Shown: positions 13,159 to 56,416 of the stretch, piece after piece | Layout of the letters: each line of letters opens with the position of its first letter | Numbering within the stretch: position 1 is the stretch's first letter | Source: Clostridium mediterraneense | Lineage (GTDB): Bacteria > Bacillota > Clostridia > Clostridiales > Clostridiaceae | DNA length: 64,000 bases | Reading direction: 5' to 3' | NCBI RefSeq assembly: GCF_900091705.1 | Contig: NZ_LT594785.1 | Span: 1,782,985 to 1,846,984, forward strand | Program-made: the position numbers and the translations under genes | Notes under the pieces: generated by a model | Told to the model about the DNA's origin: nothing | The model's input: the letters and a program-made list of their open reading frames with translations, nothing else | The model's database searches: none

Positions 13159-15138
13159 TTACTTATTTAACTTTCTATTTATATTATTTTTAACTATTAT
13201 ATAAGTTGCTATAAAATATCCACCATAAACTGACACTAAAATTACTGCAGTAACCATAATATTTCTAACAACATTATCATAGCCAAAGCTACTAACTATA
13301 TCTCTTGCAAGCTTTAATCCAACAATGGAATGTATTAATGCAACAGCTAAAGGAATTATGAAATATATAACAATTTGAATAAAGATAGATTTATTTATCA
13401 TAGCTCTATCCACACCTATTTTATCCATTAAATTATACCTTTCAATATTATCGGTTGATTCTGATAATTGTTGTATTGCTAATACTACTGAAGATGCTAT
13501 TAAAAATATTAAACCTAAATATATTGAAAGATAAGCAATCATAACTCCAAAAGCTAAAGGAGTTTCCTGTGCTGTATCTTGATTAGCATAAGCTATGCTT
13601 CCATTCTCTTTACTAATCAATTTCACCTTATTAGTAATCTCTGATAAATCTTTATTAGTATCAATATTAATATAAGATTTAACCTTTGGTAGATTATTCA
13701 CTACTAAATCATTAACAACAAAAATTACTATATCTGATTTAATAAATCCGTTATAAAAAGTAATATTACTGGCCATATCATTTACTGGCGTTAATATATT
13801 GTTATTTATATCTATCTGTTTTCCACTCTTTAAGACCGAATCAATATATTTTATAGCATCACCTATATTAGATATAACCATATATTGATTTTCTTTAAAA
13901 CTTATAGGCTTTTCACCAAGCATTTGTAATGTTTTATTTAACTGAGATAACTTAATAACATTAATATTGTCATTTATATATACAGGATAATATTTATTTA
14001 AATCACCTATATTATTTTTATTAAAGAAGCTTTTATAATGAATATCAGTCTTATACATATCAATATTAGAATAATTATTAGTATAACTACTTATATTTAA
14101 ACCATGATCTTTTAAATATTTATCTAAATCTACATTATTTCCTGATATAGTTATATCAAATTTACAAGCATCTTTAATACTAGAATTTATACTCTTATTT
14201 AATCCAAGCCCTGTTGATAAAGTGCATATTGCTATAAATAACATTAAACAAACAAATGACATAGATACAAAGGCAGTATTTATTTTACTATTAAGTTGTC
14301 TTAAAACAAACATATTTAAATCTCTTAAATATGTTTTCTTACTTGTTTGTACAACTTTTAAAAAGAACCCTGTTAATGATAAAAATAATAATAAAGTTCC
14401 TACTGCTCCAAGTCCAACACTTAGAAAATCTGTTCTTCCCCCTATTGTAGCAGTACCTTTTTTTAATATTAAATAATACGCAGTTCCTATCATAACTACA
14501 CTTATAAAGAATATAATAACTGATATTAAAATATTGCTTATTAATAATTTTTCATTTTTCTTTTTTGCATTAATTAAATTTATAAGCTTTATTCTTCTTA
14601 AAGAAAAACTATTAAAAATAAATACTATAATATATATAATTAAAAAACATATAATAGTTTTTAAGGCTGCTGATGAAGAAAATATAAAAATAAATTTATT
14701 TAACTTTGTATCAAATAACTTTGCTGTAAATATTGATAATCCCTGTGATAATAAAACTCCTAATAAAAGTCCAATCCCTAAAGAAAGGAAACCTAGTACT
14801 AAACTCTCTATAAATAAAATCCTTGAGATTTTACTTTTTTCCATACCAAGAGTCATATATATTCCAAATTCTTTTTTTCTTCTTTTTATAAGATAATTAT
14901 TAACATATAAAATCAAAAATCCAAGAATAAATGATACAAAAACAGAAGTAATACTCATAATAACATTTATTGAGGAGAATGCTGCCTTTTGTGACTCACT
15001 TAAATCCAATATTATAGTTTGAGATTGTATAGAATTAAAAGTATAGAAAATACAAACTCCAAATATTAAAGTCATAAAATAAATAGTATAATCTCTAACA
15101 CTTCTCCTTATATTTTTAAGAGCAAGATTAAAATACAT
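13159..15138 (-). CDS. BceB-type ABC transporter permease (FtsX-like)
   Basis: About 659 residues. I start it at the ATG at 15138 because GGAGGTG lies about nine bases upstream. The in-frame ATG at 15147 touches that site, and an upstream in-frame codon at 15174 would overlap the ATPase gene more deeply. One helix near residue 25 is followed by three more. A helix group around residues 190-300, a large outside domain (about 325-525) and a final helix cluster come next. This ten-helix plan with a roughly 200-residue external domain is typical of BceB/VraG permeases, which free lipid-II-cycle targets from bacitracin-like peptides. It overlaps the ATPase gene by 11 bases. Confidence 0.88.
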   Translation of the reverse strand: MYFNLALKNIRRSVRDYTIYFMTLIFGVCIFYTFNSIQSQTIILDLSESQKAAFSSINVIMSITSVFVSFILGFLILYVNNYLIKRRKKEFGIYMTLGMEKSKISRILFIESLVLGFLSLGIGLLLGVLLSQGLSIFTAKLFDTKLNKFIFIFSSSAALKTIICFLIIYIIVFIFNSFSLRRIKLINLINAKKKNEKLLISNILISVIIFFISVVMIGTAYYLILKKGTATIGGRTDFLSVGLGAVGTLLLFLSLTGFFLKVVQTSKKTYLRDLNMFVLRQLNSKINTAFVSMSFVCLMLFIAICTLSTGLGLNKSINSSIKDACKFDITISGNNVDLDKYLKDHGLNISSYTNNYSNIDMYKTDIHYKSFFNKNNIGDLNKYYPVYINDNINVIKLSQLNKTLQMLGEKPISFKENQYMVISNIGDAIKYIDSVLKSGKQIDINNNILTPVNDMASNITFYNGFIKSDIVIFVVNDLVVNNLPKVKSYINIDTNKDLSEITNKVKLISKENGSIAYANQDTAQETPLAFGVMIAYLSIYLGLIFLIASSVVLAIQQLSESTDNIERYNLMDKIGVDRAMINKSIFIQIVIYFIIPLAVALIHSIVGLKLARDIVSSFGYDNVVRNIMVTAVILVSVYGGYFIATYIIVKNNINRKLNK

Positions 15139-15898
15139 CTCTATCATCACCTCCAAGTAGGGCAATAACTTCAATTATTCTATTAAAAAATTCTTTTCTT
15201 GTATCATGTCCTCTAATTATTTCATTAAATATTTTTCCATCCTTTATAAAAAGAATTCTACTAGCATAACTTGCAGTAAACGCATCATGAGTAACCATCA
15301 TAATAGTTGCATTTAATGACTTATTAAGTTCTTCCATAGATTCTAATAACTTTTTAGCAGACTTCGAATCTAAAGCTCCTGTTGGCTCATCAGCTAAAAT
15401 CAGACTTGGATTAGTTATTATAGCTCTTGCTGCTGCAACTCTTTGTTTTTGTCCACCAGATACTTCATAGGGAAATTTATTTAATATATCAGTAATATTT
15501 AATTTATCACTTATCTCTTTGATTCTATTATCTATCTCTTTAGGTTTTATTTTTAATATCGATAAAGCTAATGCAATATTTTCATAATTAGTTAATGTGT
15601 CTAAAAGATTAAAATCTTGAAAAATAAATCCTAACTCTTCTCTTCTAAACTTAGATAAAGCCTTTGAACTTATTTTTGTAACATCCTTATCATTTATATT
15701 AATATGTCCACTACTTACCTTATCAATTGTAGCTATACAATTAAGCAAAGTAGTCTTTCCACTTCCTGATGCCCCCATTATTCCAACAAATTCACCTTCA
15801 TCTACTTCAAAACTAATATTATTTAAAGCTTTAACTACATTACCTCTTCTACCATAATATTTTTCTATATTACTTACTTTTAAAACTTGCTTCCTCAT
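15128..15898 (-). CDS. BceA-type ABC transporter ATPase
   Basis: 256 residues. Walker A is GASGSGKTT (42-50), the signature SGGQ is at 147-150 and Walker B is LILADE (166-171), followed by PTGALD. This is the MacB/LolD/BceA-type subgroup that pairs with FtsX-like permeases. It gives the energy for the permease just downstream, whose gene overlaps its end. GAGG lies upstream of the ATG at 15898. The 124 bases before it hold a promoter and a BceR-like operator, so the transporter pair can be induced separately from the regulator genes. Confidence 0.92.
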   Translation of the reverse strand: MRKQVLKVSNIEKYYGRRGNVVKALNNISFEVDEGEFVGIMGASGSGKTTLLNCIATIDKVSSGHININDKDVTKISSKALSKFRREELGFIFQDFNLLDTLTNYENIALALSILKIKPKEIDNRIKEISDKLNITDILNKFPYEVSGGQKQRVAAARAIITNPSLILADEPTGALDSKSAKKLLESMEELNKSLNATIMMVTHDAFTASYASRILFIKDGKIFNEIIRGHDTRKEFFNRIIEVIALLGGDDRDVF

Positions 15899-15967
15899 TA
15901 TTTATTATATCCTCCTTAAACTTCTTATAGCTTAATTCTATCAATCTACTAATTCTTAAACCATAGA

Positions 15968-15998
15968 AGTATATAACACTAAACTTACATTTTTGTTA
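15968..15998 (-). promoter_or_regulatory. BceR-like operator and -10 box before the ABC genes
   Basis: On the minus strand TAACA-AAAA-TGTAA (15985-15998) is an exact match to the TNACA-N4-TGTAA inverted repeat known for BceR-type regulators. Eleven bases on, a -10 box TATACT (15968-15973) follows, with no clear -35. That is the usual form of an activated promoter. Confidence 0.65.
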
Positions 15999-16022
15999 TA
16001 TTAGAAATACTATAAATTACTT

Positions 16023-17033
16023 TTAGAAAGTAATCATTTTATTAATAGGAAATATAATAGAAACTTTAGTTCCGATTCCTTCTTTTGAATCAAGTTTTAT
16101 TCTGAGTCCAAGTTTTATACAAAGTTTATTACATAAATAAAGTCCTATACCAGTTGATTTTATAAATTTTCGTCCATTATCACCTGTATATCCTTTTTCA
16201 AAAGCTTTAGCTATATCCTTTTCACTCATTCCAATTCCATTATCACAAATACTTAAAGTTATATTTTCTTCATTTTTATCACAATATATCTTCAGCTCTT
16301 TATTCCCCTTTTTCATATATTTAATAGAATTTATAATTATCTGATTTAAGATAAATTCTAACCATTTACTATCTGAATAAACTTCCTGATCAATATTGTC
16401 CAATTTTATTTTAATATTATTATTAAGCAGAGAATTCATATTTCTTTTAATCACTTTATTAACAGAACTTTTTATATTCATCTTTTTAATAATATAATCT
16501 TTCTCTACCTCATTGCTTCTAGCATAAAATAACGCTTGTTCTATATAATTTTCTATTTTCTCTACCTCTTCACTAATACTATCCACAACTTCAGATTCAT
16601 TATTTTCACTTATTAATTTACAAACTGCTATTGGTGTCTTAACCTCATGCACCCACATCTCAATATACTCTTTATATTCTTCACTTTTTATATTTAAGTT
16701 AGCTACCTCATCAGCCATTGACTTATTAGTTTCTTTGATAACTTTATATAAAATCTTTCCATCTAAAAAATTAGCTTCTTCTATTATATCTGAGATTAAA
16801 TATTTTTTATCTAAGGCCTTTAGATTATATAAAAGTTCGCTATAATATTTATTCTTATTAAAATAATCATAAATATAAAATATAGTACTTCCTATAAAAT
16901 TAACAATTACTATAAATATAATTGTATAATTCTCAACTCGTAATGACTTTAAAAGGACTGAGGTAAATATTAAAACTAATATATGAATCCCAATGAAAAT
17001 TAAATGAGATTTAAAATACTCTAATGGTTTCAT
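16023..17033 (-). CDS. BceS-type intramembrane-sensing histidine kinase
   Basis: 336 residues. Two membrane helices (about 11-30 and 36-55) are separated by only a few residues, so there is almost no outside sensor domain. This is the mark of intramembrane-sensing kinases that read the state of their partner ABC transporter. The phospho-acceptor motif is WVHEVKTP with His129. The ATP-binding part shows the N box around NSIKY and the G boxes GIGMS and GIGLYLC. It overlaps the response regulator gene by four bases. It likely senses transport flux of BceAB-like proteins rather than the peptide itself. Confidence 0.9.
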   Translation of the reverse strand: MKPLEYFKSHLIFIGIHILVLIFTSVLLKSLRVENYTIIFIVIVNFIGSTIFYIYDYFNKNKYYSELLYNLKALDKKYLISDIIEEANFLDGKILYKVIKETNKSMADEVANLNIKSEEYKEYIEMWVHEVKTPIAVCKLISENNESEVVDSISEEVEKIENYIEQALFYARSNEVEKDYIIKKMNIKSSVNKVIKRNMNSLLNNNIKIKLDNIDQEVYSDSKWLEFILNQIIINSIKYMKKGNKELKIYCDKNEENITLSICDNGIGMSEKDIAKAFEKGYTGDNGRKFIKSTGIGLYLCNKLCIKLGLRIKLDSKEGIGTKVSIIFPINKMITF

Positions 17034-20854: not shown

Positions 20855-23338
20855 TTGATAAGTAAAAAAATTAAAAAAGTAGTTTCTACTTTAATTGTCT
20901 CATCTCTTTCTTGTTTACTTTTACCTACTAGTAATTTAACTGTTGCTATGGCTAAAGAAAACGTTAGCAATAATACTGAAATCAGAAAAACTACTGATAC
21001 TTCTATAGAAAGAAAAATAGTTGGTTATTTTCCAGAATGGGCTTATAAAAGTGAAGCTCAAGGCTACTTTAATGTTACTGACTTACAATGGGAAGAACTA
21101 ACCCATATTCAATATTCTTTTGCTTCTGTAAATGAAAAAACAAATAAAATAGACTTTGGAGATAAAAAAGCTGCAATAGAAGAAGACTTCTCAGATTTAA
21201 AACCTGAACAACTTATGTATAATGGCAAACAAATAGAGCTTGATAAAACTTTACCTTATAAAGGTCACTTTAACCTTCTTCAAACAATGAAAAAATCTTA
21301 TCCTGATGTTGATTTATTAATTTCTGTAGGTGGTTGGGCTGGTTCAAGAGGTTTTTATACTATGATGGATACAGATGCTGGTATAAATACTTTTGCTGAT
21401 TCCTGTGTTGATTTTATAAGAACCTATGGTTTTGATGGTGTTGATATAGATTTTGAATATCCATCTTCAACTAGTCAATCAGGAAATCCTGCTGATTTTG
21501 ATGTTAGCGAACCTAGAAGAGCTACTATAAATGAAAGATATAATGTTTTAATGAAAACATTAAGAGAAAAATTAGATGCTGCATCTAAAGAAGATGGAAA
21601 ACAATATTTATTAACAGCTGCTGTTACTGCTTCATCTTGGGTACTTGGTGGGGTATCTTCAAATGAATATGCTAAATATCTTGATTTCTTAAGTGTAATG
21701 TCTTATGACTTCCATGGTGGTTGGAATGAATTTGTTGAAAACTTAGCTAATATTTACCCAGATCCTGCTGATAAAGAAACTGCAAGTATGTTAATGCCTG
21801 TACTTGCTATGGATTGGGCTTATAGATATTATAGAGGTGTTCTACCTCCTGAAAAAATATTAATGGGTATCCCTTATTATTCTAGAGGCTGGGAAAATGT
21901 TAATGGTGGAGAAAATGGACTTCATGGAACAAGTAAAACTCCTGCTTCTGGTAAATATAATATTTGGGGAGATGACTTAGATGGAAATGGTGAATTAGAA
22001 CCTGCTGGTGCTAATCCTTTATGGCATATACTAAATCTTATGGAAAAAGACCCAGATCTTAAAGTTTATTTTGATGAAGTAGGTAAAGTACCTCATGTTT
22101 GGCAAGATAAAGAAAAAGTTTTCTTATCTTTTGAAAATGAACAATCAATAGCTGAAAGATTAAAATATATACAAGAAAAAAATCTTGGTGGTGCTTTAAT
22201 TTGGGTTATGAATGGTGATTATGGCTTAAATCCTAATTATGTTCCTGGTTCTGATAATGTTAATGAAGGTAAATACACTTATGGAAATACTCTTACAAAG
22301 AAATTAAGCGATGGTTTAAAGAAAATGGGACCTGCTACTCCTACTATTGAAAACGATACAAGTAATGGAGAAATAAATGTTGATGTAAAACTTAATGGAA
22401 AATATGATCACCCTAATTACACATACACTTTAGATATAACAAATCATACTACTGAAAAAATAGAAGGTGGTTGGACTGCTACATTTGATCTTCCAAATTC
22501 AGCAGTATTTAAATCATCTTGGGGAGGAACTGTTACTACAACTCCTAATGGTGACTTTACAACTGTTAAAATAACTTCAGCTGGCTGGCAAGGAATTGAT
22601 CCTGGACAAACTTTATCATTACAAGGTATGATTGGACTTTGCTTCTCTGGAGTTAGAAATGTAACATTTAACGGAATGAAACCTGTTGGAGATAAAGAAA
22701 TAGTTAAAAATGAAGCTCCTGTGATCTCTGGTGTTTCTGATAAAACTATAAAAGTTGGTGATAGCTTTGATCCTTTAGCTGGACTTAAAGCTACTGATAA
22801 AGAAGATGGTGATTTAACAAGCAAAGTAACTGTATCTGGAAAAGTTGATACTTCAAAAGTTGGAAAATATACATTAGAATACTCTGTTAAAGATAGTAAA
22901 GGACTTACAACTACTAAAATAGTAACTATTACAGTTCAAGATAAAGATGTAACTCCTACTAATACAAAACCTGAAATAAAAGGTGCTGATAATGTTGAAC
23001 TAAATGTGGGAGATAAATTTGATCCTTTAGCTGGAGTTACAGCTTCTGATAAAGAAGATGGTGATTTAACAAGTGAACTAAGTTATTCTGGACAACTTGA
23101 TACTTCAAAGGCTGGAAAATATACATTAATATATTCTGTTAAAGATAGTGGCGGATTAGAAGCTACTATAACTAGAACAATTACAGTCAAAGAAAATTCT
23201 AGTGTAGAAGATACATTTGATATAAATAAAGCTTATTCAGCAGGTGATACTTGTATATATAATGGTAAAAAATATGTAGCTAAATGGTGGACTCAAGGTG
23301 CTTATCCTGATAAAAGTGATGCTTGGAAATTAGCATAA
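20855..23338 (+). CDS. Secreted multidomain GH18 chitinase
   Basis: 827 residues from a TTG start at 20855. AAGGGGGA lies about seven bases upstream and no nearby ATG has a site. A signal peptide covers about residues 1-33. The GH18 domain (about 53-490) has SVGGW and the catalytic DGVDIDFE, with the proton donor Glu201. A cellulose-binding-type beta-sandwich (about 505-615), two nearly identical Ig-like DUF5011-type repeats (about 620-705 and 708-780), and a C-terminal chitin-binding type 5/12 module with paired Trp (KWWTQGAYP) follow. It should degrade chitin or GlcNAc-rich host glycans outside the cell. It matches the plan of clostridial ChiB enzymes. Confidence 0.93.
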   Translation: MISKKIKKVVSTLIVSSLSCLLLPTSNLTVAMAKENVSNNTEIRKTTDTSIERKIVGYFPEWAYKSEAQGYFNVTDLQWEELTHIQYSFASVNEKTNKIDFGDKKAAIEEDFSDLKPEQLMYNGKQIELDKTLPYKGHFNLLQTMKKSYPDVDLLISVGGWAGSRGFYTMMDTDAGINTFADSCVDFIRTYGFDGVDIDFEYPSSTSQSGNPADFDVSEPRRATINERYNVLMKTLREKLDAASKEDGKQYLLTAAVTASSWVLGGVSSNEYAKYLDFLSVMSYDFHGGWNEFVENLANIYPDPADKETASMLMPVLAMDWAYRYYRGVLPPEKILMGIPYYSRGWENVNGGENGLHGTSKTPASGKYNIWGDDLDGNGELEPAGANPLWHILNLMEKDPDLKVYFDEVGKVPHVWQDKEKVFLSFENEQSIAERLKYIQEKNLGGALIWVMNGDYGLNPNYVPGSDNVNEGKYTYGNTLTKKLSDGLKKMGPATPTIENDTSNGEINVDVKLNGKYDHPNYTYTLDITNHTTEKIEGGWTATFDLPNSAVFKSSWGGTVTTTPNGDFTTVKITSAGWQGIDPGQTLSLQGMIGLCFSGVRNVTFNGMKPVGDKEIVKNEAPVISGVSDKTIKVGDSFDPLAGLKATDKEDGDLTSKVTVSGKVDTSKVGKYTLEYSVKDSKGLTTTKIVTITVQDKDVTPTNTKPEIKGADNVELNVGDKFDPLAGVTASDKEDGDLTSELSYSGQLDTSKAGKYTLIYSVKDSGGLEATITRTITVKENSSVEDTFDINKAYSAGDTCIYNGKKYVAKWWTQGAYPDKSDAWKLA

Positions 23339-24415: not shown

Positions 24416-27400
24416 TTAATTTATACTATCTCCTATATAAACTAAACCATTTTTAGTTATTTCAAATACACTAGACTTATTTACATCATATGAATTATTT
24501 AAAATATTATCCTTATATAAATGTGAAATACTTATTTTAGAACTTCTATTATAGTCTATAAATATTTTATCTCCATATTTAAAATCTAAATTATTAAATG
24601 CATTATATAGTGGATCCTCTGGATAATCCCCACCTTTTAGTGTTACACTTTTTATTAATTCATTATTTTTATTATATAATCCTATAGTGAATGCTCTTTC
24701 TTTTAAATATGGATTTATTACTGACCATCCTTTATTAACATTCATTTTCATACTTAAAGTATTGAAACCTAATTTAGCTAATGATTGATTCCATATATTA
24801 TTAATAGTAATACTAGAATTAGTTAAAGGAGTAACTCCCTTTTCTAAGCCTTCTTTTGGCATTAGATTTAACATATCCTTAGCAATTGGTTTTTGATTAG
24901 GATTTTCAACTAAATTTAAAGCCTTTTGAATAGAATCAACATAATAATTATAATCTAAAGTTGTTCCATTATTTAATATTTGATTTTTAATTTGTAATAA
25001 TATATCAAACATAGGCATTGGATAATCTTTAAGTGCTTTTATAATTTCCTCACTAAGATTCATATAATCTTTTACTGTAAGATTATTATTTGTCTTCATT
25101 AAATTAATCTTATCAAGCCATGCTTCTAGATTTAAAGGTTCTATACTTATAGCCTTATCTATTGCATTCATCTTATCTTTGTAAGAAGTTCTAGAACTTG
25201 CTAACCATAAATATTCATTTGAATTACTTAACTTTTGCTTATCTATATTTTCATATAATAAATTATAATTTGTTACATTCCCATTAGTTGCTATGCCTTT
25301 TGACCATCCACTAATATCAGCTCCTGAGCTGCCTGACCATCCACTAATATTATTTCCTAGAACCCATTCCTTTTGATTATTATAAAATATAAATGCACAA
25401 TGTCCTGGTTGTCCAACTGGTTGTGCTGGCATACCAAATATTTGACAAGCAGATGCTCCTATATAAGATGTAGAACCACACACTCCTCCATCATACCAAA
25501 CATCTAATGGACTTGGATTTGCTCCATAGAAATCTGGTCCAAATACGCTTACTCCTGTATGAGGATTTATTTCATTATAATTTATTGTATAAGCTATATT
25601 ATTTAAACCACTATGTCCATTTGCATTTATAAAAGCATTATGATTTTGCATTATTACAGCTCTCATCCCTAATATTTGAGAATTAGGTATATGTGTATTA
25701 ACAACGTACATTATATGTCTAATATCTAAAGTTTTAAATATAGGAAGCATTTCACCTTCCTCATTTAAAGTTTCAAATATATTGTATCTTTCAACTGGAT
25801 CTCCTACAGTACCTTTACCCGGCCAAGCCTTTATTGGCGTAGCATTACTTACTGCAACAGCTATTGCTAATTTTAAATTAAATCCTGTTCTTGAGTTTGT
25901 ATATTTGTTCCATATATCAGACCAAATTTGTAGCCCATTAATATTCATTTCTTTTGGATTTGTTGCTTGTAAATATTCTTGCATAGCAATTTTATTATTT
26001 AGCACCCAGTTTATAAACTCTTTATTAGCTTCACTTTTATTAAAGAAGTTTTCTAAGTTTGTTTCCCCAACTCTTGTTATAAACTCTCTTGTAGTAATAT
26101 CATAATTTAACTTATCAGAACCTAATATATCAGCATTATTATTAGTATTCATCATTGAATTAATATTAATCTCAAATTCTTTAGCATAACTTGATATATC
26201 ACTTGATTTATCTATATTAATAACTGATTTCTCAGTAACAGCTATTAAAAGTAAATTATCTGAATTTCCTTCTAATATATACTTTGAATTACTTGGAGTA
26301 TTTGATGAAACTTTTATTGGGAATAATTTATTATTTACCTCTAAAGCAAATGTATAATGTTGTCCTACTACTAATTTATTTAAAATTGATTCTGGTATTA
26401 TAGCTTGTACACTTAGCTCATTATTATTTAATATGCTTGTATTTACTGAATCTACAATTTTATTATTTGAATCTAATATAACAAGCTTTTTATTAGCTTT
26501 TAATATATTTTCACTTTGTCCATTAGCTATATTACTATCTACAACTAAATTATTATTATCCCAAGAAACATTACTTGTATAAGCATTTTGTCCAAAATTA
26601 ACTTTCACAAGGCCCTCTTTTGTTATTTTAAAGTACTCTTCATCACCACTTATATTACTTAATATCTTATTTCCATTTAAAACAACTGGTCTAGAAATAT
26701 CCTTATTATAACTTAATCCTATTATGTCACCATAATTAAATGATTTTTCATTTAAAAGATTTGTTAATTGACTTGTTGCTCCATTATTAACTGAAGAACT
26801 TAAAATTTTATCTCCATTAGTGTTATATAAATTAAAATTAAAGTAATGGGATTTTCCATCTCCAAAACTATCAGCATAATTATTTACTATAAACTTCATA
26901 GTTTGTGGATTAAATGTTATACTTGATGATAATTTTCCTTGCCATCCTTGATTATCATAAAAGTTTATATAACTATTCATTAATTGTATATTAGACTTTA
27001 TTGATGGAGTAATTTGTGTTGGTATATATCCTTCTGATGATACAATAATATTTGTATTATTTGTAAATCCATCTTTATCATTTATAGCAATATTAAAATT
27101 ACCATTTCCATTTGTCATTCCCTTAAATATGTTTCCATCAACTGAAACATCTACAAAAGTATTAGGTTTTGCAGTACCTTCTATATTAGCTGATATTACT
27201 TTTTCATTACTTAAGATATCTAGTGGTTTTACATTAATAAATTTATTATTTAAATTTACAAGCCCCTTATTTGTTATCTCAAAATATTCTTTTGCTCCAG
27301 TAGTATTTCCTATACTATTCTTTCCATCATAAACATTAGCTTTAACAAACTGTGGATTATATGAGACTTCTATTATATCTCCAAGTTTATAATTTTTATT

Positions 27401-29755
27401 ATTTACTTCTGATATAAAGCCATTAATGTCATCTAATTTATTACCTTTGAAAGAATATATATACTTTCCTGTTTTAGAATCTATAAGCTTTATATTTAAA
27501 GAATCTCCATAAAATGCTCCTGTATATGTCTTACTTAAAGGATTTGCTGCTGCTTGCAATGTATTATTAACAGGGTTAAAACTTACATTAAATATTGGAA
27601 CATTAGTATTATTTAAAACTTCTATTCTATTTGTATTTATATTTATTAAATTAGAATCATATTTTACTGTTAAGATTTTATTATTATCATTATTAACAAA
27701 AACTCTAATTTCACTATCTATAGGTGCATCATTAATAGGTATTTCTATTGAAAAATTACCATTATTATCTGCTTTAACAATTTTTGATCCATTATTGAAA
27801 TAAGCATTTACATCTGCATTAGGCAACGTTTTACCTGTTAAAACTATATTTTGATTACCTTTATATAAAGCTTGTGAAGTAATTAAATCTTTATTTTCTA
27901 ATGGTACTAATCCACTCGGTGTTATTTTAAAACATTTAAATTTATCTACAGCATCAATCTTAGTTTTTCCATCATCAAGTAATAAATTTCCGCAAGATAA
28001 CTGTGTTTCCTTACTTTCATACACAGCAATTATATCTCCATATTTAAAATGAGCACCATTTAAATCCTCTTTTGAATCAAATACATTAAAATTGCTTGTA
28101 GCACAACTTGCTATAAGCTTTCCTGATTTACCATCTATAAGTTGTGCTGCAAAAGCTTTCCCTCTTTCATTATTTACTGTCATTGTTGCTGGATTAAAAC
28201 TTATAGTTTGTCCATAAGTTGCATCCTTATTTTTATCTGATATATATATCTTAGATTTTAATATACCTAAATTTTTATTAACTGATGGATTTATAGTTGT
28301 AGTAAGTTGCCCATCAGTTTCTACTAATATATTAGTTTCATTTGTAAATCCATTAACATCAGAAATATTAACTTCAAATTTTCCTTCTGAGTTAGATTTA
28401 GTTGTAAATTCTTTTCCTTCAACAATTACATTTACTACTTGATTAGCTTTATTAATATTCCCTGAAATAATACCTGTTGTTATTTTTCCATTTCCTAAAA
28501 CACCAAAAGGATTAACTTTGATTTCAGTCATATCACATAACTTTAATCCATCTTGTGTTATTTTCATTTCAATAGGTTTATTTATTAAATATTGTTTTTC
28601 ATTATTAAAATTAGATATTTTTAATTTACTTGATTTCTTGTAATCTATTTTTATAATATCACCATAAGAAAAATTTAAATTATTAAAAGTATTACTTAAT
28701 TCAGTCTGTGGATGTTCAGTACCTTTAACTTTTACTGTTTTAACCAACTTACCATTACTTTTATACATACTTATAGAAAAAACTTCATCATCTTTTGATA
28801 CATATGGATTTATTTGCGCCCAATCTTTTATAAATTCTATTTTAGATGTTAGAGGATTAAATTTTAAAGTGCCAATATGTTGGTTCCAAATATTATCAAT
28901 ACTTATATTATTTTCACTAATTTTGTATATATTAGGATTTAATATAGGGTTTACTATTTTTTCTTTTTCTCCTTCTGCTAAAACTTTAATTTTAGTTGAT
29001 ACTGTTATATTTTTATCTGCTGTTATATCTAAATTATAAATCCCCTTAGAATCTGAAGTTGTTTTATAATCTTTATTATCTACCCATATATTTACTATCA
29101 TATTTGGTTTTGCTTTACCTGAAACATTTATCTTATTACTATTTAAAGTAAAATATATAGGATTTACAATTAAATTATCTTCAATTTTCTTTAATCCATC
29201 TTGTGTAATTTCATAATTAATATTTTCATTTGGCTTAGCATTAGTTCCAAGATCTTCTGGATAATTACTTCTTGAATCTATTCCACTAGTCCATACATAT
29301 AATCCTGTACTTTGGATTGATATTCTATCTCCATAATTAAATGTTAATCCATTAAAATCTTTTGCTATATCATTAATATTTTCTGAATCACTATAACTTT
29401 TACTCTTTATTATTGTTCCATCTTTACTATATAAAGTAATACTAAACGCTTTATTAGTTCTAGTATTAGAAAATTTTCTATTATTTATTGGACTTATTTC
29501 TATCTTATTATTAATAGTATTAAACTTTATTGCTCCTGATATATATGGTCCATAGTAATCACAGAATAATTGAATTTTCTGATTATCTAAACTATTATTT
29601 TTTATAATAGTTTTGTTTGTTTCATTACTTTTTTCTATTTTAGTAGTACTAGCTAATAAAACTTTATTATTACTCATACTTGATGCTATTGGCTGTACAT
29701 TCATAGCCATTACTCCAGCTAAACTTATAATTGATAATATTTTTTTGGTATTCAT
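24416..29755 (-). CDS. Giant secreted repeat protein with transglutaminase-like domain
   Basis: About 1,779 residues from the ATG at 29755, which has GAGGAG nine bases upstream. An in-frame ATG at 29806 would put a charged stretch before the signal peptide. A signal peptide covers about residues 1-26. Five copies of a roughly 125-residue beta-rich module follow, near 72-185, 285-415, 498-622, 705-838 and 925-1055. Each has FNP-T, an LY..NG strand, F-YGD-I and ITxxGL. Most are joined by Ig-like linkers. Residues about 1285-1500 look like a transglutaminase/papain-like fold, with Cys1426 in GGVCGST and His1452 in GQPGHCAF, then Asn/Trp. A TPR-like helical stretch and a sixth module end the protein. 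The modules resemble mucin/carbohydrate-binding domains. There is no LPXTG motif. It may be an adhesin, enzyme or toxin. Confidence 0.8.
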   Translation of the reverse strand: MNTKKILSIISLAGVMAMNVQPIASSMSNNKVLLASTTKIEKSNETNKTIIKNNSLDNQKIQLFCDYYGPYISGAIKFNTINNKIEISPINNRKFSNTRTNKAFSITLYSKDGTIIKSKSYSDSENINDIAKDFNGLTFNYGDRISIQSTGLYVWTSGIDSRSNYPEDLGTNAKPNENINYEITQDGLKKIEDNLIVNPIYFTLNSNKINVSGKAKPNMIVNIWVDNKDYKTTSDSKGIYNLDITADKNITVSTKIKVLAEGEKEKIVNPILNPNIYKISENNISIDNIWNQHIGTLKFNPLTSKIEFIKDWAQINPYVSKDDEVFSISMYKSNGKLVKTVKVKGTEHPQTELSNTFNNLNFSYGDIIKIDYKKSSKLKISNFNNEKQYLINKPIEMKITQDGLKLCDMTEIKVNPFGVLGNGKITTGIISGNINKANQVVNVIVEGKEFTTKSNSEGKFEVNISDVNGFTNETNILVETDGQLTTTINPSVNKNLGILKSKIYISDKNKDATYGQTISFNPATMTVNNERGKAFAAQLIDGKSGKLIASCATSNFNVFDSKEDLNGAHFKYGDIIAVYESKETQLSCGNLLLDDGKTKIDAVDKFKCFKITPSGLVPLENKDLITSQALYKGNQNIVLTGKTLPNADVNAYFNNGSKIVKADNNGNFSIEIPINDAPIDSEIRVFVNNDNNKILTVKYDSNLININTNRIEVLNNTNVPIFNVSFNPVNNTLQAAANPLSKTYTGAFYGDSLNIKLIDSKTGKYIYSFKGNKLDDINGFISEVNNKNYKLGDIIEVSYNPQFVKANVYDGKNSIGNTTGAKEYFEITNKGLVNLNNKFINVKPLDILSNEKVISANIEGTAKPNTFVDVSVDGNIFKGMTNGNGNFNIAINDKDGFTNNTNIIVSSEGYIPTQITPSIKSNIQLMNSYINFYDNQGWQGKLSSSITFNPQTMKFIVNNYADSFGDGKSHYFNFNLYNTNGDKILSSSVNNGATSQLTNLLNEKSFNYGDIIGLSYNKDISRPVVLNGNKILSNISGDEEYFKITKEGLVKVNFGQNAYTSNVSWDNNNLVVDSNIANGQSENILKANKKLVILDSNNKIVDSVNTSILNNNELSVQAIIPESILNKLVVGQHYTFALEVNNKLFPIKVSSNTPSNSKYILEGNSDNLLLIAVTEKSVINIDKSSDISSYAKEFEININSMMNTNNNADILGSDKLNYDITTREFITRVGETNLENFFNKSEANKEFINWVLNNKIAMQEYLQATNPKEMNINGLQIWSDIWNKYTNSRTGFNLKLAIAVAVSNATPIKAWPGKGTVGDPVERYNIFETLNEEGEMLPIFKTLDIRHIMYVVNTHIPNSQILGMRAVIMQNHNAFINANGHSGLNNIAYTINYNEINPHTGVSVFGPDFYGANPSPLDVWYDGGVCGSTSYIGASACQIFGMPAQPVGQPGHCAFIFYNNQKEWVLGNNISGWSGSSGADISGWSKGIATNGNVTNYNLLYENIDKQKLSNSNEYLWLASSRTSYKDKMNAIDKAISIEPLNLEAWLDKINLMKTNNNLTVKDYMNLSEEIIKALKDYPMPMFDILLQIKNQILNNGTTLDYNYYVDSIQKALNLVENPNQKPIAKDMLNLMPKEGLEKGVTPLTNSSITINNIWNQSLAKLGFNTLSMKMNVNKGWSVINPYLKERAFTIGLYNKNNELIKSVTLKGGDYPEDPLYNAFNNLDFKYGDKIFIDYNRSSKISISHLYKDNILNNSYDVNKSSVFEITKNGLVYIGDSIN

Positions 29756-29829
29756 ACTTTTAATCTCCTCATACCTATATATAACTATATATTTACATGA
29801 TTTCATCTTTTAAATGTTATCTTTATTAC

Positions 29830-30202: not shown

Positions 30203-31522
30203 CTATATTTCACTAATAATAACCTCTATATTTTCATTAATCTCAGTAAAATTGTTATCTGATAATCTAGTTGGAAGAATATACTCTCCATTTATATCCT
30301 TATTTGCTTCTATTCCATTAATAAGGATCTTTGAAACATGATAATTATCTAATACCTTTGGAATATCTATATTTATATAAGAACCAGGTGAGCCACTTGT
30401 TACTTCATGTTTTGCTAATATAATTTCTCCCTGATCATTTTTAATCTCCATATGTACTTTATGTATTATATCTTTTACAACATAATAAGTTATTATTTCA
30501 TTTTCAACAGAAAACTTTTCTGGAACTCCAGATACAATTTCTCCTCTTAAATTAGTTATATCCATTAAATGATAGCCACTTGGAATTTCAGGTTCTTTAA
30601 ACCCTGTTTCTTCTCCCTTTTTCCCAGTTGCAGATAATTTCAAAATAACCTCCATTGTTTCACTATCTACAACTTCAACATTATTAACACAAGTAACTTC
30701 CTCTTTATTTGAAACTATATCTTTATCGGAATCAACATTTGTATTAATTAAAATATCTAATAAGTTTTTCTCTATGTACTCTTGTCCACTTACCCTATTT
30801 CCTTCTGGAGTATATACTTTTATAGCATCATCAAAATTTTCTTCCACTTTTTTATTATTAGTTTCTATACTAATAGTATTACTAACTTCTATTACCTTAT
30901 TTGCATTTATTATTTCTTTCTCTGTTAATTCATAAGGAAGTTCTTCTAATCCATCTCTAGTTATTTCCACAAAAATAGGATTACTTATTTGATAATCCCT
31001 TCCACCATTAAAATTAGATATATTTACATTAATAGATTCACTATAATCTATCTTTAAAATATCTCCATAAAAAAAACTTAAATTATTAAAAGCTAAGCTT
31101 AATTTACTTTGTGGCTCTTCCCCTATATTGATAAAGACAGATTTTATTAAAGTTTTATTATATCTATATAAACTAATAGAAAAAGTATCTTTTGAATCTA
31201 CTAAATCATTAAATCCTGCCCAGCCCTTTCTAAATAATATCTTATTTGTTAAAGGATTAAATCTTAAAACTCCAATTGGTTCCTCCCAGATATTACTCAT
31301 AGTTATAATATTATTTTCAATCTCATATGTAGTAGCATTATTATCTCTTTTAACCCTTGTATTTATAGTTGTATCTTTTTTAGCTTTAGTACTTTTATCA
31401 TTGAATTCACTATTATTATAAGTAGTATTATTCCCAGTAATATCATCTGGCGGTATAGGCTGCGTATTAACAAGTGAAACACCAGCTAATGCCATAATTG
31501 ATAATATATTTTTTGAATTCAT
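30203..31522 (-). CDS. Secreted companion protein with one shared repeat module and MucBP-like tail
   Basis: 439 residues. The leader MNSKNILSIMALAGV matches that of the giant protein (MNTKKILSIISLAGV) closely, ending near QPI. One copy of the shared beta-rich module lies at about 70-195 (IGVLRFNPLT, FFYGDILKIDY, EITRDGL). A spacer of about 100 residues follows. The C-terminal region (about 300-439) has strand patterns like MucBP domains (PSGYHL, GSPGSYINIDIP, NYHVSK). No sortase motif or transmembrane tail is seen. It is probably secreted and glycan-binding. The shared leader and module suggest descent from, or exchange with, the larger neighbour, and joint function outside the cell. Confidence 0.75.
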   Translation of the reverse strand: MNSKNILSIMALAGVSLVNTQPIPPDDITGNNTTYNNSEFNDKSTKAKKDTTINTRVKRDNNATTYEIENNIITMSNIWEEPIGVLRFNPLTNKILFRKGWAGFNDLVDSKDTFSISLYRYNKTLIKSVFINIGEEPQSKLSLAFNNLSFFYGDILKIDYSESINVNISNFNGGRDYQISNPIFVEITRDGLEELPYELTEKEIINANKVIEVSNTISIETNNKKVEENFDDAIKVYTPEGNRVSGQEYIEKNLLDILINTNVDSDKDIVSNKEEVTCVNNVEVVDSETMEVILKLSATGKKGEETGFKEPEIPSGYHLMDITNLRGEIVSGVPEKFSVENEIITYYVVKDIIHKVHMEIKNDQGEIILAKHEVTSGSPGSYINIDIPKVLDNYHVSKILINGIEANKDINGEYILPTRLSDNNFTEINENIEVIISEI

Positions 31523-42871: not shown

Positions 42872-44338
42872 CTAAAATCTAAATTTAATCCCCCTACTTT
42901 TAACTAGTAAAATTCCAATCACATATATTAAAACTATTAATATAGAATAAATTATTAATGCAATAACATCATTATTAATAACAATAATATTTTTGATAAA
43001 GATAAATGTAAAAATTGTAAATATTGAAACTAATAATATTTTAATATTTTCAATTATAATATATTTTTTATATATATTAAATTTATATATATTTTTAAAT
43101 TTAATTAATATCATACTAAATGATATTATAGTAGCTATTAAAGTTCCTATCACTACTCCATATATCCCCATATACTTAGATAAAATTATACTTATTACAA
43201 TATTTAACATACTTGTATAAATACTATTTTTAAATGGTGTATAGGTATCATCATTTATATAAAAATATTTATATATTAAATCTTTTATAGCACTTATAGG
43301 CATCAATAATGAATATATAATTAAACAAATGTACACTATATTTGTTGTAGTATTTGTAAATTCTCCTCTTTGATAAAGTATTTTAACCCCATATTTTCCA
43401 ACTAGTATTATTCCTATTGATACTAAACTTATTACCATATTTAAAAATATCATATAATCAAATATTTTACTGTAATTTTTTTTATTTATTATTTCATTCG
43501 ATAATTTAGGATATATAAATATCATTAAATTTCCTAATATTAAAGTCACTATCATTCCATTTAAACTATTAGAGTAATTTAATTGTGATATTACTCCATC
43601 CCCTAATTTGGATGCTATTACTGTATCTATACTTAATGATAATTGATATACGCTTGATCCAATTGCTATTGGTAAAAATGATTTTAACATTTTTTTCAAA
43701 ATATCAAATTCATATTTTATCTCTTTTATAAGCTTATATAAATATCTTCTTATTAAAATAAATTGTAATACCAAATTTACACTAGTAACTATTAAAACAA
43801 TATTTGCATAATACTTTATTGTTATCTTATCTTTAGAAAATAATAATATAACACTAATAAATAATGGAATTAAATTTAGAAACTTAGATATATTAAATTT
43901 CTCCTCACATTGTGTAATAGCATTGGTTACACCTAAAAATGTTTGTATAAAATGAGTTATTATTATTATACTGGATATATCTAATATAACCTTTATAAAA
44001 TAATGATTATCACCATTATAAAAAATACTAAGTATATCTCTTTTGAAAATTAATGTAAATAAGAAAATAATAAATGTAATAAAATATATGAATAAAATAA
44101 ATATATTTATATACTTTCTATTTTTTTTATTCATATAATTAGGAATTAATATAGTAGTAACTCCAAATGAAATAAATCCAAAAATCAACCCAATTATACT
44201 ATTAATGAAATTATATCCATCCATCTCTATACTTGTCCCAAAACTTGATGCAACAATTGATGTTTTTACTAAAGTAACTATTTGTGCTAAAACTGATAAC
44301 AAAATCATAATTACTAATCTAATATAATTTTTATTCAT
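42872..44338 (-). CDS. MurJ/MviN-type flippase of the capsule cluster
   Basis: 488 residues, about fourteen membrane helices. The N-terminus (VKTSIVASSFGTS...MDGYNF) and the segment GVTTILIPNYM match the MviN/MurJ branch of the MOP exporter superfamily. In this place it should flip the lipid-linked capsule repeat unit across the membrane (the Wzx role). A second lipid II flippase role is possible but less likely given its neighbours. It starts one base before the stop of the upstream pyruvyltransferase gene. Confidence 0.8.
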   Translation of the reverse strand: MNKNYIRLVIMILLSVLAQIVTLVKTSIVASSFGTSIEMDGYNFINSIIGLIFGFISFGVTTILIPNYMNKKNRKYINIFILFIYFITFIIFLFTLIFKRDILSIFYNGDNHYFIKVILDISSIIIITHFIQTFLGVTNAITQCEEKFNISKFLNLIPLFISVILLFSKDKITIKYYANIVLIVTSVNLVLQFILIRRYLYKLIKEIKYEFDILKKMLKSFLPIAIGSSVYQLSLSIDTVIASKLGDGVISQLNYSNSLNGMIVTLILGNLMIFIYPKLSNEIINKKNYSKIFDYMIFLNMVISLVSIGIILVGKYGVKILYQRGEFTNTTTNIVYICLIIYSLLMPISAIKDLIYKYFYINDDTYTPFKNSIYTSMLNIVISIILSKYMGIYGVVIGTLIATIISFSMILIKFKNIYKFNIYKKYIIIENIKILLVSIFTIFTFIFIKNIIVINNDVIALIIYSILIVLIYVIGILLVKSRGIKFRF

Positions 44339-44339
44339 T

Positions 44340-45413
44340 TTAAATACCTAATATTTCTTTAAAACTATAATCTATCTTTTCTTGAAATTCTTCTAAAGAA
44401 AAATTATTTATATTTTCTTCAGAAAAAGATTTCAACTTATCTGAAAATACAAATGGTATAACTTCACAATTATAATTTTGAGCTAAAATTAGAGCGTGCA
44501 TTCTAGCAGATATAACTTTACTTGCTACCGATACTATTTCTATAAATGAATCTAAGTCATTTGTATTTACTACATCGAATCTTAATCCATGTACTTCATT
44601 ACAATATTTTATAAATCTATATGCCTGATCTTTATCAGAATTAGTAGTATAACATATTTTTACCTCATAATTTTTATCATTATTTTCTCTTACTAGTCGT
44701 AACCATTCTTCCATAAATTCTTCTTCACCATCATATCTATTACAAATATTATTTATTATTGAATAATCCATTATTGATATTAAAATTAATTTTTTTTTGA
44801 TTAATCCTTCTTTTTTATTTATTTTATTAAAATAATATACTATATCTGGAGATAATTTTATTTCTTTTTTCAAGTTTAATTTTTCTAACTTTTCTTTACT
44901 ATTTTTATCTCTAACATAAATTTTATTAAATTTAGGTAATATTAACTTAAATATCATTTTATCTATAAATGAAATTTTATCCCCTATTCCCACTCCATAT
45001 AAATATACTTCTGATTTCAAGTATACTTTAGATATAATAAACCATAGTAATAATGATTGAACAAAATAACCATTTGAAAGTAATAATTGTCCTCCTCCAA
45101 TTATTACCTTATCATAACTTTCTTTTTTAACCTTACTATATATTGATTTATTATTTTTAAACCAAATGATAGTCTTTATAATTGGAAATATTTCTTTTAG
45201 TTTAGTTTTTATTAAATTTGCCTTATTCACTTTTAAATTATCTTTATCTTCATATTTATAATAACTACTAATATGAATTTTACTCTTCTTTGTATAGTCT
45301 ATACACTTTACATTATTCCCTTTTAAGCGTAAGTAAGTTGAAATACTTTCACCAATAGCTACATCCCCTAAATTATCAGATAAACATTCATTTATTACTA
45401 ATATATTTTTCAT
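44340..45413 (-). CDS. Polysaccharide pyruvyltransferase-family protein
   Basis: About 357 residues. I place the start at the ATG at 45413, which forms an ATGA overlap with the stop of the upstream gene. A start at 45428 would sit on the GGGG site itself. The N-terminal motif is NLGDVAIGES. GGGQLLLSNG and the late motif SARMHALILAQ are the family's marks. It transfers pyruvate from phosphoenolpyruvate to a sugar to form a ketal, giving a negatively charged capsule. Some members instead act as glycosyltransferases. Confidence 0.85.
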   Translation of the reverse strand: MKNILVINECLSDNLGDVAIGESISTYLRLKGNNVKCIDYTKKSKIHISSYYKYEDKDNLKVNKANLIKTKLKEIFPIIKTIIWFKNNKSIYSKVKKESYDKVIIGGGQLLLSNGYFVQSLLLWFIISKVYLKSEVYLYGVGIGDKISFIDKMIFKLILPKFNKIYVRDKNSKEKLEKLNLKKEIKLSPDIVYYFNKINKKEGLIKKKLILISIMDYSIINNICNRYDGEEEFMEEWLRLVRENNDKNYEVKICYTTNSDKDQAYRFIKYCNEVHGLRFDVVNTNDLDSFIEIVSVASKVISARMHALILAQNYNCEVIPFVFSDKLKSFSEENINNFSLEEFQEKIDYSFKEILGI

Positions 45414-46120
45414 ATTGATTTTATACATCCCCTTATTAATCTTTTCACTCCATAAGTAACTCTTCCTATAACTTTTTCTTTCTTAGGTACCCAAGAGCCC
45501 ATAAAATGATGAATTGTATATGTATTTTCAGTTATATTAATCTTCCCAGTTCGCCAATCCTTTGCACAAAAGTAATCAAAAGGATATATATGAATATTAT
45601 TATCTAACACCTGATATTTATTATTTAATTTTAAATTATAATTTTTTAATGTTATATCTGTTATTGTTCTAGTATTAGGAATATTATAAATACTACCATC
45701 ATCTAATTTAAATTCCTTATCATTATAAAAATCTAATAATATTTTTATCCATTCATTATTTTTACATGCTGCCATCATTCCAGTTGGAATAGAATACTCA
45801 TTTTCAAAACTAGTAAATGCTCTATGTTTTAAAAATCTATTTAATGGCTTGATTACTTCTACATCAGTATCCATATAAATTCCTCCATAATTATATAGAG
45901 CATATAATCTAACAAAATCAGTTACAAATGCATATTTTTTATTATTGTAAGCTTGATAAACAAATTCATTACATGTTATATCAAAATTTTCTTCATTCCA
46001 TATTTTTAACTCATAATCAGGCATAATCTCTTTCCAACTATTAATACACCTTAATGCTTCTTTTGGTATTTTATTACCTCCAAACCAGCAATAATGAATA
46101 ATTTTAGGTATTTGATTCAT
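45410..46120 (-). CDS. GT32-type capsule glycosyltransferase
   Basis: 236 residues. IPKIIHYCWFGG at the N-terminus, then FVTDFVRLYALYNYGGIY and the metal-binding DTD (Asp84, Asp86), are the standard marks of the OCH1/GT32-like family. It should transfer a sugar from a nucleotide-sugar donor to the growing repeat unit on the inner face of the membrane. It overlaps the polymerase gene by 17 bases and the pyruvyltransferase by four, so it is translationally coupled on both sides. Donor unknown. Confidence 0.87.
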   Translation of the reverse strand: MNQIPKIIHYCWFGGNKIPKEALRCINSWKEIMPDYELKIWNEENFDITCNEFVYQAYNNKKYAFVTDFVRLYALYNYGGIYMDTDVEVIKPLNRFLKHRAFTSFENEYSIPTGMMAACKNNEWIKILLDFYNDKEFKLDDGSIYNIPNTRTITDITLKNYNLKLNNKYQVLDNNIHIYPFDYFCAKDWRTGKINITENTYTIHHFMGSWVPKKEKVIGRVTYGVKRLIRGCIKSI

Positions 46121-47378
46121 TTAAGTTTTCCCCCTTAATAAAATAAAATAGATATATCATCCCTATCCATGTAGATATAAAAAGAAACATCCATCCACTT
46201 GTAGTTTTTATCATCGTATATATTAAATATGCCATCATCGCTATACTAAAAAGATTTCTTTTTCTAAGCATTACTAAATACATAAAATTAACAATAAATC
46301 CAAATATTATTGGATAAATTATTAATCCCCATATTCCTAAATCTCTTAATAAATGATATACCCATGTAGGAGCTGCATTCATGTATATCCCATCACCTAT
46401 ATTTTGAGTAATAGCTGTCATAGATGTTATAATATAATCTCCACCGTATAATTTATAATCAAAATTAAATAATTTTGATGATATAGCTATTATTGGATTT
46501 ATTAACCCTCCTAAAAATACTCTTCCTGTTAAATAATTATTTATGAAAAGAAATTCACTATTACTCAAATATATATCTAGTAAAGAAAAACTCCCTACAT
46601 AATAAACAGCAAAGTTATTTAGAAAATTAAAATTGCTTCCTCCTCGTTTTATTGTTAAATAAATTATTGGAATTAATAAAATTAATATAAATCTTTTTTT
46701 TATTTTTATTTTCACTTTATTATTTAATCTAATTAACATATAAATAATTATATAAAATTCTATTATTCTAGATATAGGAGTCCTTCCTCCAAATGTAATA
46801 GCTTCTAAGATTGAATTTAAAAAAGATATTTTTAATAATATATTTAATCTATTTTCTTTAAAACTTAATATTATACCTAATATTGAAACTATTAAAAAAA
46901 ATGGACTAACAATATATTGAAATAAAGCATGTATCATAGTTGAATTAATAAATTCACTTGATTCATTAAATGCTAATAACCTTAAATATTCAAATCCATT
47001 TTCCCTAATTATATTAATTGATTTAAATGTATATGGAAAAATTATAATTATATATATAATATTCAAAGAAATTAATTGCTTTACCTTAATATTTTTTATT
47101 GATAATTTTAACTTTTTATTTAAATTATTTTTCATTATTTTTTTTGATGATATAAAATATATAAGATAGGATCCAATATTAAAAAATAATATTGATAAAA
47201 AAATATATAGATATGTACTATTTCTTGGAACCCTTAAGCCTGATATGCCGAAAATAGATAAAAAACTTATTATCATCCACCAAATATTAAATATAGCCGT
47301 TGGATTAAATATACATTTATATATTTTTTTTGAAATTACTATACCTAATCCACATTCTAATACTACAATTAACCCCAT
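46104..47378 (-). CDS. Capsule repeat-unit polymerase (Wzy-like)
   Basis: 424 residues, about eleven membrane helices, with long loops. A larger outside loop lies around residues 280-340, including the segment YGGDYIIT. The pattern and place fit the O-antigen/capsule polymerase family, which joins repeat units outside the membrane. Such proteins share little sequence, so the call rests on topology and context. It overlaps the next glycosyltransferase gene by 17 bases. Confidence 0.75.
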   Translation of the reverse strand: MGLIVVLECGLGIVISKKIYKCIFNPTAIFNIWWMIISFLSIFGISGLRVPRNSTYLYIFLSILFFNIGSYLIYFISSKKIMKNNLNKKLKLSIKNIKVKQLISLNIIYIIIIFPYTFKSINIIRENGFEYLRLLAFNESSEFINSTMIHALFQYIVSPFFLIVSILGIILSFKENRLNILLKISFLNSILEAITFGGRTPISRIIEFYIIIYMLIRLNNKVKIKIKKRFILILLIPIIYLTIKRGGSNFNFLNNFAVYYVGSFSLLDIYLSNSEFLFINNYLTGRVFLGGLINPIIAISSKLFNFDYKLYGGDYIITSMTAITQNIGDGIYMNAAPTWVYHLLRDLGIWGLIIYPIIFGFIVNFMYLVMLRKRNLFSIAMMAYLIYTMIKTTSGWMFLFISTWIGMIYLFYFIKGENLNESNT

Positions 47379-47388
47379 TTTTTTCTCC

Positions 47389-48222
47389 TTAATTTAAAAC
47401 TTTTGATAGAATAATAAATATAATCTTATTTTTATTTATTTTTATCTTATCTACTATACTTAAATTTTTATTTATTCTTTGTTCATTTTCCTCATTCGTA
47501 AATTCTTCCATTTTTTTATTTTTATATAATTCATTTATGTAGCATGTACTAATCATTTGTTTATCAGTGTTACTTCTAGATACCCCACTTTTTCTTACCC
47601 TGTATTTTAATAATCTTTTATTTAATATACGTATTCTTTTATTATTACTTATACATCTTAATATTAAATCATAGTCTTCTGCATATTTTACATCTCTATA
47701 CCCACCAATTTCATCTATTAGTTTTCTTCTAAAAATTATACTAGGATGAATAAATAAATTCCCATATGATAATATTTTCATTATATTTACTTCTTTTTTA
47801 CTTCTATTAATAATATTACTTTTTATAAAATTACCATCTTCATCAATTAAATCAACTTCACTTCCTAATAAATCAATATAATTATTATCCTCCATATAAT
47901 TAACTTGTTCTTCTATTCTATTTTTATAACTTATATCATCTGCATCCATTCTTACTATATATTTACCACTGCTAATTTCTATACCTTTATTCAAACAATA
48001 TACTAGACCTTTATTGGTATGATTTTGTATAAATATAATTCTAGAATCTATTTTTTTTACTTCTTCTACATATTTAATACACTTATAATTTTTAGGATTA
48101 TCTGATATTATTATCAGTTCTAAATCATTAAAAGTTTGCTTTAATATAGATTCTATAGATTGCTTTAATAACATTATGTCTTCATTATAAAAGCTCAATA
48201 TAACTGAAACTTTTCTATCCAT
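47389..48222 (-). CDS. GT2-family glycosyltransferase
   Basis: 277 residues. A GT-A fold starts with SVILSFYNED. The metal site MDADD is at 92-96, and FRRKLIDEIGGYR and YAEDYDLILR follow. It probably adds one sugar to the capsule repeat unit in the cytoplasm. The C-terminus is basic and may touch the membrane. It lies between the GT4 gene and the polymerase gene. Acceptor and donor cannot be told from sequence. Confidence 0.87.
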   Translation of the reverse strand: MDRKVSVILSFYNEDIMLLKQSIESILKQTFNDLELIIISDNPKNYKCIKYVEEVKKIDSRIIFIQNHTNKGLVYCLNKGIEISSGKYIVRMDADDISYKNRIEEQVNYMEDNNYIDLLGSEVDLIDEDGNFIKSNIINRSKKEVNIMKILSYGNLFIHPSIIFRRKLIDEIGGYRDVKYAEDYDLILRCISNNKRIRILNKRLLKYRVRKSGVSRSNTDKQMISTCYINELYKNKKMEEFTNEENEQRINKNLSIVDKIKINKNKIIFIILSKVLN

Positions 48223-48236
48223 TTTATAATCTCTCC

Positions 48237-49442: not shown

Positions 49443-49443
49443 A

Positions 49444-51678: not shown

Positions 51679-51689
51679 ATTATATCCTC

Positions 51690-52739: not shown

Positions 52740-52753
52740 AATTAATCCCCCTA

Positions 52754-53950: not shown

Positions 53951-53968
53951 AACATATCTCCTATAATT

Positions 53969-54604: not shown

Positions 54605-54606
54605 AT

Positions 54607-55224: not shown

Positions 55225-55242
55225 AACTAACTCCCCTAAAAA

Positions 55243-56385: not shown

Positions 56386-56416
56386 TTTTTCCCCTTATTA
56401 AAATACTAATTTAATT

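Follow-up and report, generated by a model that had tools for sequence, protein, structure and literature searches.

Clostridium mediterraneense encodes a giant secreted protein in which repeated modules surround a domain with a conserved cysteine and histidine, raising the question of which bond such a protein would act on, and where. We analyzed a stretch of 64,000 nucleotides (contig NZ_LT594785.1; hereafter the window) that carries the gene for this 1779-aa protein. The reading that we favor, with moderate confidence, is that of a secreted, glycoprotein-directed cysteine hydrolase with Mucin_bdg modules and a transglutaminase-like head.

Leader and modules of the 1779-aa protein

The open reading frame 24416-29806 on the minus strand contains a second ATG at 29755, which is preceded by GAGGAG, and translation from there yields 1779 aa. 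The leader, as judged by eye, is of the signal type (MNTKKILSIISLAGVMAMNVQPIASS). The first cysteine of the protein is residue 65, so a lipoprotein cysteine is absent, and a motif search for [LI]PxT[GSA] found no match anywhere in the protein, which places it outside the sortase-anchored class. This agrees with the initial annotation, which had called the protein secreted and devoid of an LPXTG anchor. Promoter-like sites numbered 71 compared to 72.1 in shuffles, and terminator-like sites 1 compared to 1.0.

From the N terminus, the protein consists of the leader, modules M1 to M5 with four Ig-like linkers between them (Pfam Big_6 and CarbopepD_reg_2), the Cys/His domain, and module M6 (Table 1). 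Between M5 and M6 lie the Cys/His domain and some 127 residues that no Pfam family matches. When each module copy was searched with a profile built from the other five, all six were recovered with E values from 9.6e-23 to 2.9e-12; the repeat is thus not due to chance. Together with a 25-row alignment of the enzyme domain, this bears out the initial description of a giant protein with six copies of one module, Ig-like linkers and a Cys1426/His1452 domain.

Judging by profile matches, the modules can be named as Pfam Mucin_bdg (PF03272), a putative mucin/carbohydrate-binding module. The whole protein scores 44.7 bits against a cut-off of 27, while single modules reach at most 25.7 bits. The AF2 model of M2 has a pLDDT of 92.0 and a pTM of 0.86. 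A resemblance to mucin-binding domains had been suggested from the outset and holds, and the family, left unnamed in the initial annotation, does have a name. The module profile also gave a partial match to a solved DUF3472 protein (8pmu/8pn3/8pn5; E 7e-4). We infer that the modules bind glycans.

Table 1. Positions of the gene, its domains and its upstream neighbor in the window
Feature	Position	Strand	Basis
1779-aa modular secreted protein gene	24416..29755	-	ORF, GAGGAG before ATG, leader
Module M1, residues 58-192	29180..29584	-	Leave-one-out E 8.7e-17; alone, no Pfam match at E <= 1
Module M2, residues 282-408, Mucin_bdg-like	28532..28912	-	Leave-one-out E 9.6e-23; PF03272 alone 25.7 bits (cut-off 27)
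Module M3, residues 504-620	27896..28246	-	Leave-one-out E 1e-12; PF03272 alone 12.1 bits, E 0.18
Module M4, residues 712-836	27248..27622	-	Leave-one-out E 2.9e-12; alone, no Pfam match at E <= 1
Module M5, residues 934-1053	26597..26956	-	Leave-one-out E 1e-14; PF03272 alone 19.0 bits
Enzyme domain, residues 1181-1600	24956..26215	-	25-row alignment, AF2 model, fold searches, TPR-type profile matches in tail
Module M6, residues 1646-1775, C-terminal to enzyme domain	24431..24820	-	Leave-one-out E 2.3e-21; PF03272 alone 18.5 bits
439-aa protein upstream of the 1779-aa gene, similar leader, one module, no enzyme domain found	30203..31522	-	Module profile iE 5.9e-26, residues 74-194

Conservation and predicted fold of the enzyme domain

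The enzyme domain comprises a helical part, a transglutaminase-like core (C1426, H1452, and N1469), and a TPR-like helical tail. For its conservation, 25 sequences including that of the window were aligned; the G044 copy, L016 (same protein accession as L015), L018 (same gene as L014), three more Enterococcus faecalis plasmid matches and weak partial matches were left out. Both Cys1426 and His1452, the residues on which the initial annotation had staked its prediction, are invariant in all 25 rows, as are G1441, Y1497, and P1579. Position 1469 is asparagine or aspartate in 22 rows, alanine in L040, and glycine in L041 and L038. Cysteine, histidine, and Asp/Asn follow each other in the order found in Transglut_core proteins, within the motif GGVCG...GxPA...QPGH...[ND]...GW. 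In 7 of 7 pairs compared, dN/dS was 0.22 to 0.41, indicating that the domain is maintained by selection.

No Pfam or NCBIfam family matched the domain above threshold, and a PDB sequence search gave nothing above threshold for the window copy. Four NCBIfam families matched one domain member each, none of them the window copy, and these matches look like chance. Transglut_core (PF01841, cut-off 23 bits) did not match the window domain at E <= 1; at this level it was found in 6 of 20 domain members (best E 5.5e-4), and four scores of 13.1 to 18.3 bits, all below the cut-off, came from whole-protein scans of relatives. The PDB profile search returned 13 matches at E <= 10, of which 12 lie in the tail (profile positions 304-385) and 8 are named as designed TPR-type proteins. 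Alignment of the domain with a profile of 29 transglutaminases (taken from 47 matches as rows with a locus only, omitting L096) by hhalign in local mode paired the Cys motif with a probability of 38% over 27 columns, which is suggestive only; global mode yielded no useful alignment.

The AF2 model of the domain (pLDDT 89.3, pTM 0.90) places C1426, H1452, and N1469 in the order of transglutaminases and papain. Searches with this model returned transglutaminase-like proteases and transglutaminases with modest scores. The transglutaminase/papain-like fold proposed at first gains partial support: the residue order and a confident model favor it, the fold matches are modest, and a Transglut_core match is missing. 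Among the matches listed from the open-access literature, the domain does not occur. The superfamily of the enzyme is known, and the enzyme family has no name in the Pfam and NCBIfam libraries searched. The idea that the locus holds an undescribed system survives for the domain, which lacks a Pfam or NCBIfam family, but not in full, since its superfamily is known already and the modules belong to Mucin_bdg.

Relatives, partner domains and a shared scaffold

In all distribution counts, the own genome was taken as a positive and misses were kept in the denominators. With the protein as query, matches came from 4 of 7 genomes in the genus and from 14 of 206 in the family Clostridiaceae; with the alignment as query, they came from 17 of 225 genomes in the order, of which three gave only short, weak matches (21 to 26 bits). 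The class sample gave 9 of 391 genomes (the own genome, five full-length matches, and three weak ones) and the phylum sample 3 of 398 (the own genome and two weak matches). Six of 72,556 plasmid records carried the enzyme domain, all from Enterococcus and five of them typed as conjugative. A pattern scan of genome contigs gave one relative, in Clostridium thermobutyricum; the relative from strain DSM 4928 of this species (L014) is 60% identical. No relative was found in the phage and viral collections.

All relatives but one (23 of 24) went through Pfam scans; the remaining one, L034, was labeled by the module profile. In 22 of these 23, CBM32 (F5_F8_type_C), NPCBM, Mucin_bdg, or choline-binding repeats scored above cut-off, accompanied by FIVAR, Big, leucine-rich, or, once (L085), dockerin domains. 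The exception, L036, has no Pfam family at E <= 0.1 and yet six full module copies by the module profile. In L037:3157-9246 (the G006 relative), an in-frame stop cuts the last module off from the remaining protein. The enzyme-domain copy L051 (G044) is split into two short frames and looks broken.

The 25-row domain tree falls into three groups, of which the first has mostly NPCBM/CBM32, the second CBM32, and the third, to which the window copy belongs, mostly Mucin_bdg. The Pfam scan confirmed the tree labels of L043, L045, L046, and L017; in L045 it also showed leucine-rich and choline-binding repeats. The plasmid copies from Enterococcus carry Mucin_bdg as well but are nested in the CBM32 group (branch supports 98/95, 100/99, and 99/95). 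This suggests either two or more origins of the pairing with Mucin_bdg or a swap of the other partners. A domain outside the named families, with an apparently complete catalytic triad and scattered across clostridial genomes and Enterococcus plasmids, has apparently been joined to glycan-binding modules more than once. A Clostridium relative is the probable source of the plasmid copies, as suggested by the tree, in which some branches, including that of Enterococcus, are long. Examples are L015:6636-9110 and L017:6684-9107 (Enterococcus gallinarum and E. faecalis), both with enzyme domain and Mucin_bdg.

Apart from the enzyme genes, no cluster of neighboring genes is common to more than 3 of the 25 loci, several of which have short flanks; three clusters are common to three loci and 20 to two, 11 of the latter between two sister pairs. 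The protein therefore probably acts alone.

The own genome contains two close paralogues (75% and 70% identical) and, altogether, six proteins whose leaders are similar (KxILSIxxxAG type) and whose modules are the same. Three of the six bear this enzyme domain, one bears Peptidase_M60, and two (439 and 1065 aa) have no recognized head. In the M60 sister protein (L035:3-4202; first 1400 aa scanned), the Peptidase_M60 match reaches 31.1 bits (E 2.2e-7; cut-off 25.8), and the HEVGH motif is intact. Its gene lies upstream of one of the two paralogues on the same strand. The 439-aa protein matched no Pfam family at E <= 1; as judged by eye, the C-terminal half contains look-alike beta repeats that Pfam does not match, and similar ones are seen in the 1065-aa protein (L138:1407-4604). 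Since the chassis takes exchangeable heads and one of these belongs to a mucinase family, the head of the 1779-aa protein is most simply read as a hydrolase directed at glycoproteins.

Elsewhere in the window, a GH18 chitinase-type protein with ChiC, Ig-like, and CBM5/12 domains is encoded next to the 1779-aa gene (20855-23338, plus strand). A likely surface polysaccharide cluster (42872-58318, minus strand; three proteins scanned) includes a MurJ-like flippase, an epimerase, and polysaccharide synthesis proteins. An FtsX-type permease and a histidine kinase (13159-17033, minus strand) are arranged in what we take to be the manner of a BceAB-type peptide-sensing and export system.

Proposed activity and comparison with known systems

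The protein is most likely a mucin- or glycoprotein-directed cysteine peptidase or amidase with putative chemistry. It would be secreted without sortase anchoring, and its Mucin_bdg modules and Ig-like spacers would hold it on mucin-type glycoproteins, of which the transglutaminase-like head would cleave an amide bond. This would most likely be a peptide bond and, with less likelihood, a side-chain or glycosyl-asparagine amide. Cys1426 would serve as the nucleophile and His1452 as the base, with Asn1469 (Asp in many relatives) orienting the histidine. As to the reaction and its target, we infer hydrolysis rather than transfer, and a glycoprotein substrate. If mucin is cut, the head would stand beside the M60 mucinases as their cysteine-type equivalent.

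A true transglutaminase, which by Gln-Lys joining would staple the scaffold (and the cell, if attached) to mucus proteins or stiffen the mucus, seems unlikely, although the fold rows include transglutaminase 2 and factor XIII and the modules would put the enzyme on mucin. Host transglutaminase 3 is reportedly a cross-linker of MUC2. Bacterial transglutaminase-like domains, however, are mostly regarded as proteases; putative proteases account for the first fold row and for two out of four VIA rows of the transglutaminase kind, and the sister scaffold bears an M60 peptidase head. In its narrower form, in which the secreted transglutaminase, bound to mucus glycoproteins via its modules, forms Gln-Lys links that staple the bacterium's scaffold into the mucus gel, we consider this idea slightly less probable still. 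Were it true, the exchangeable heads, including M60, on one leader-and-module chassis would form a kit of mucus-editing enzymes, and linking would be a new bacterial way of holding on to mucus.

The head could instead be a secreted glycoamidase that, like cytosolic peptide:N-glycanase (PNGase), removes N-glycans from glycoproteins, which we regard as improbable to the same degree. Cytosolic PNGase has a transglutaminase-like core, and the glycan- or wall-binding modules of 22 of the 23 scanned relatives would suit a glycan-amide substrate. However, Pfam gave no PNGase family at E <= 1, and the fold rows listed (50 in one search) include no PNGase, which does not exclude such an enzyme.

Lower still do we rate a cell-wall enzyme whose head would cut or link wall peptides while its modules hold the own or a competitor's envelope. 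Choline-binding repeats in five relatives (L049, L044, L038, L041, and L045) and the sortase, holin, and amidohydrolase genes near the enzyme gene on two Enterococcus plasmid records would fit this. On the other hand, CBM32, NPCBM, and Mucin_bdg occur as partners more often, the compared flanks show no recurring wall-related neighbor gene, and choline-binding repeats may merely hold the protein on its producer.

The least probable option is a covalent adhesin or inactive scaffold, with the head as a binding domain resembling the thioester domains of Gram-positive adhesins or with its activity lost: the giant multimodule architecture is adhesin-like and the NCBIfam Ca_tandemer adhesin repeat falls just under its cut-off (46.6 versus 50 bits), but the conservation of the triad is what catalysis would predict, and selection is purifying in every pair compared. 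No thioester domain family is listed by Pfam at E <= 1 for the protein or the enzyme domain, and the fold rows listed include no such fold, which does not exclude one.

Among known systems, the domain resembles the transglutaminase-like superfamily (PF01841; papain-like cysteine enzymes) in having its cysteine just before a helix and then GxP[AS], its histidine on a strand, and N/D beyond the next strand. It differs in the Cys-His spacing, which is 26 to 28 in the enzyme family (23 rows, L041 and L038 excluded) versus 32 to 46 in ordinary transglutaminases (23 of 29 sequences fitting the pattern). Unlike Transglut_core proteins, the family also has its own QPGH motif, a large helical part N-terminal to the core, and a TPR-like tail C-terminal to it. 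To Mucin_bdg, the likeness is the whole-protein match above cut-off. To Peptidase_M60 (PF13402; enhancin and M60-like mucinases), it consists of the M60 head on a similar leader with the same modules and linkers in the sister protein; the 1779-aa protein itself lacks an M60 match at E <= 1, and its head is of the cysteine enzyme type. Enhancins, according to one report, belong to the M60 family and are metallopeptidases degrading insect mucin, and the accession PF03272 denoted an M60-enhancin profile at that time (PMC3267712). Finally, a study on Ruminococcus flavefaciens FD-1 describes dockerin-bearing transglutaminase-like proteins (PMC2930009); they are likewise secreted, modular, and transglutaminase-like, and one relative found here, L085, ends in a dockerin.
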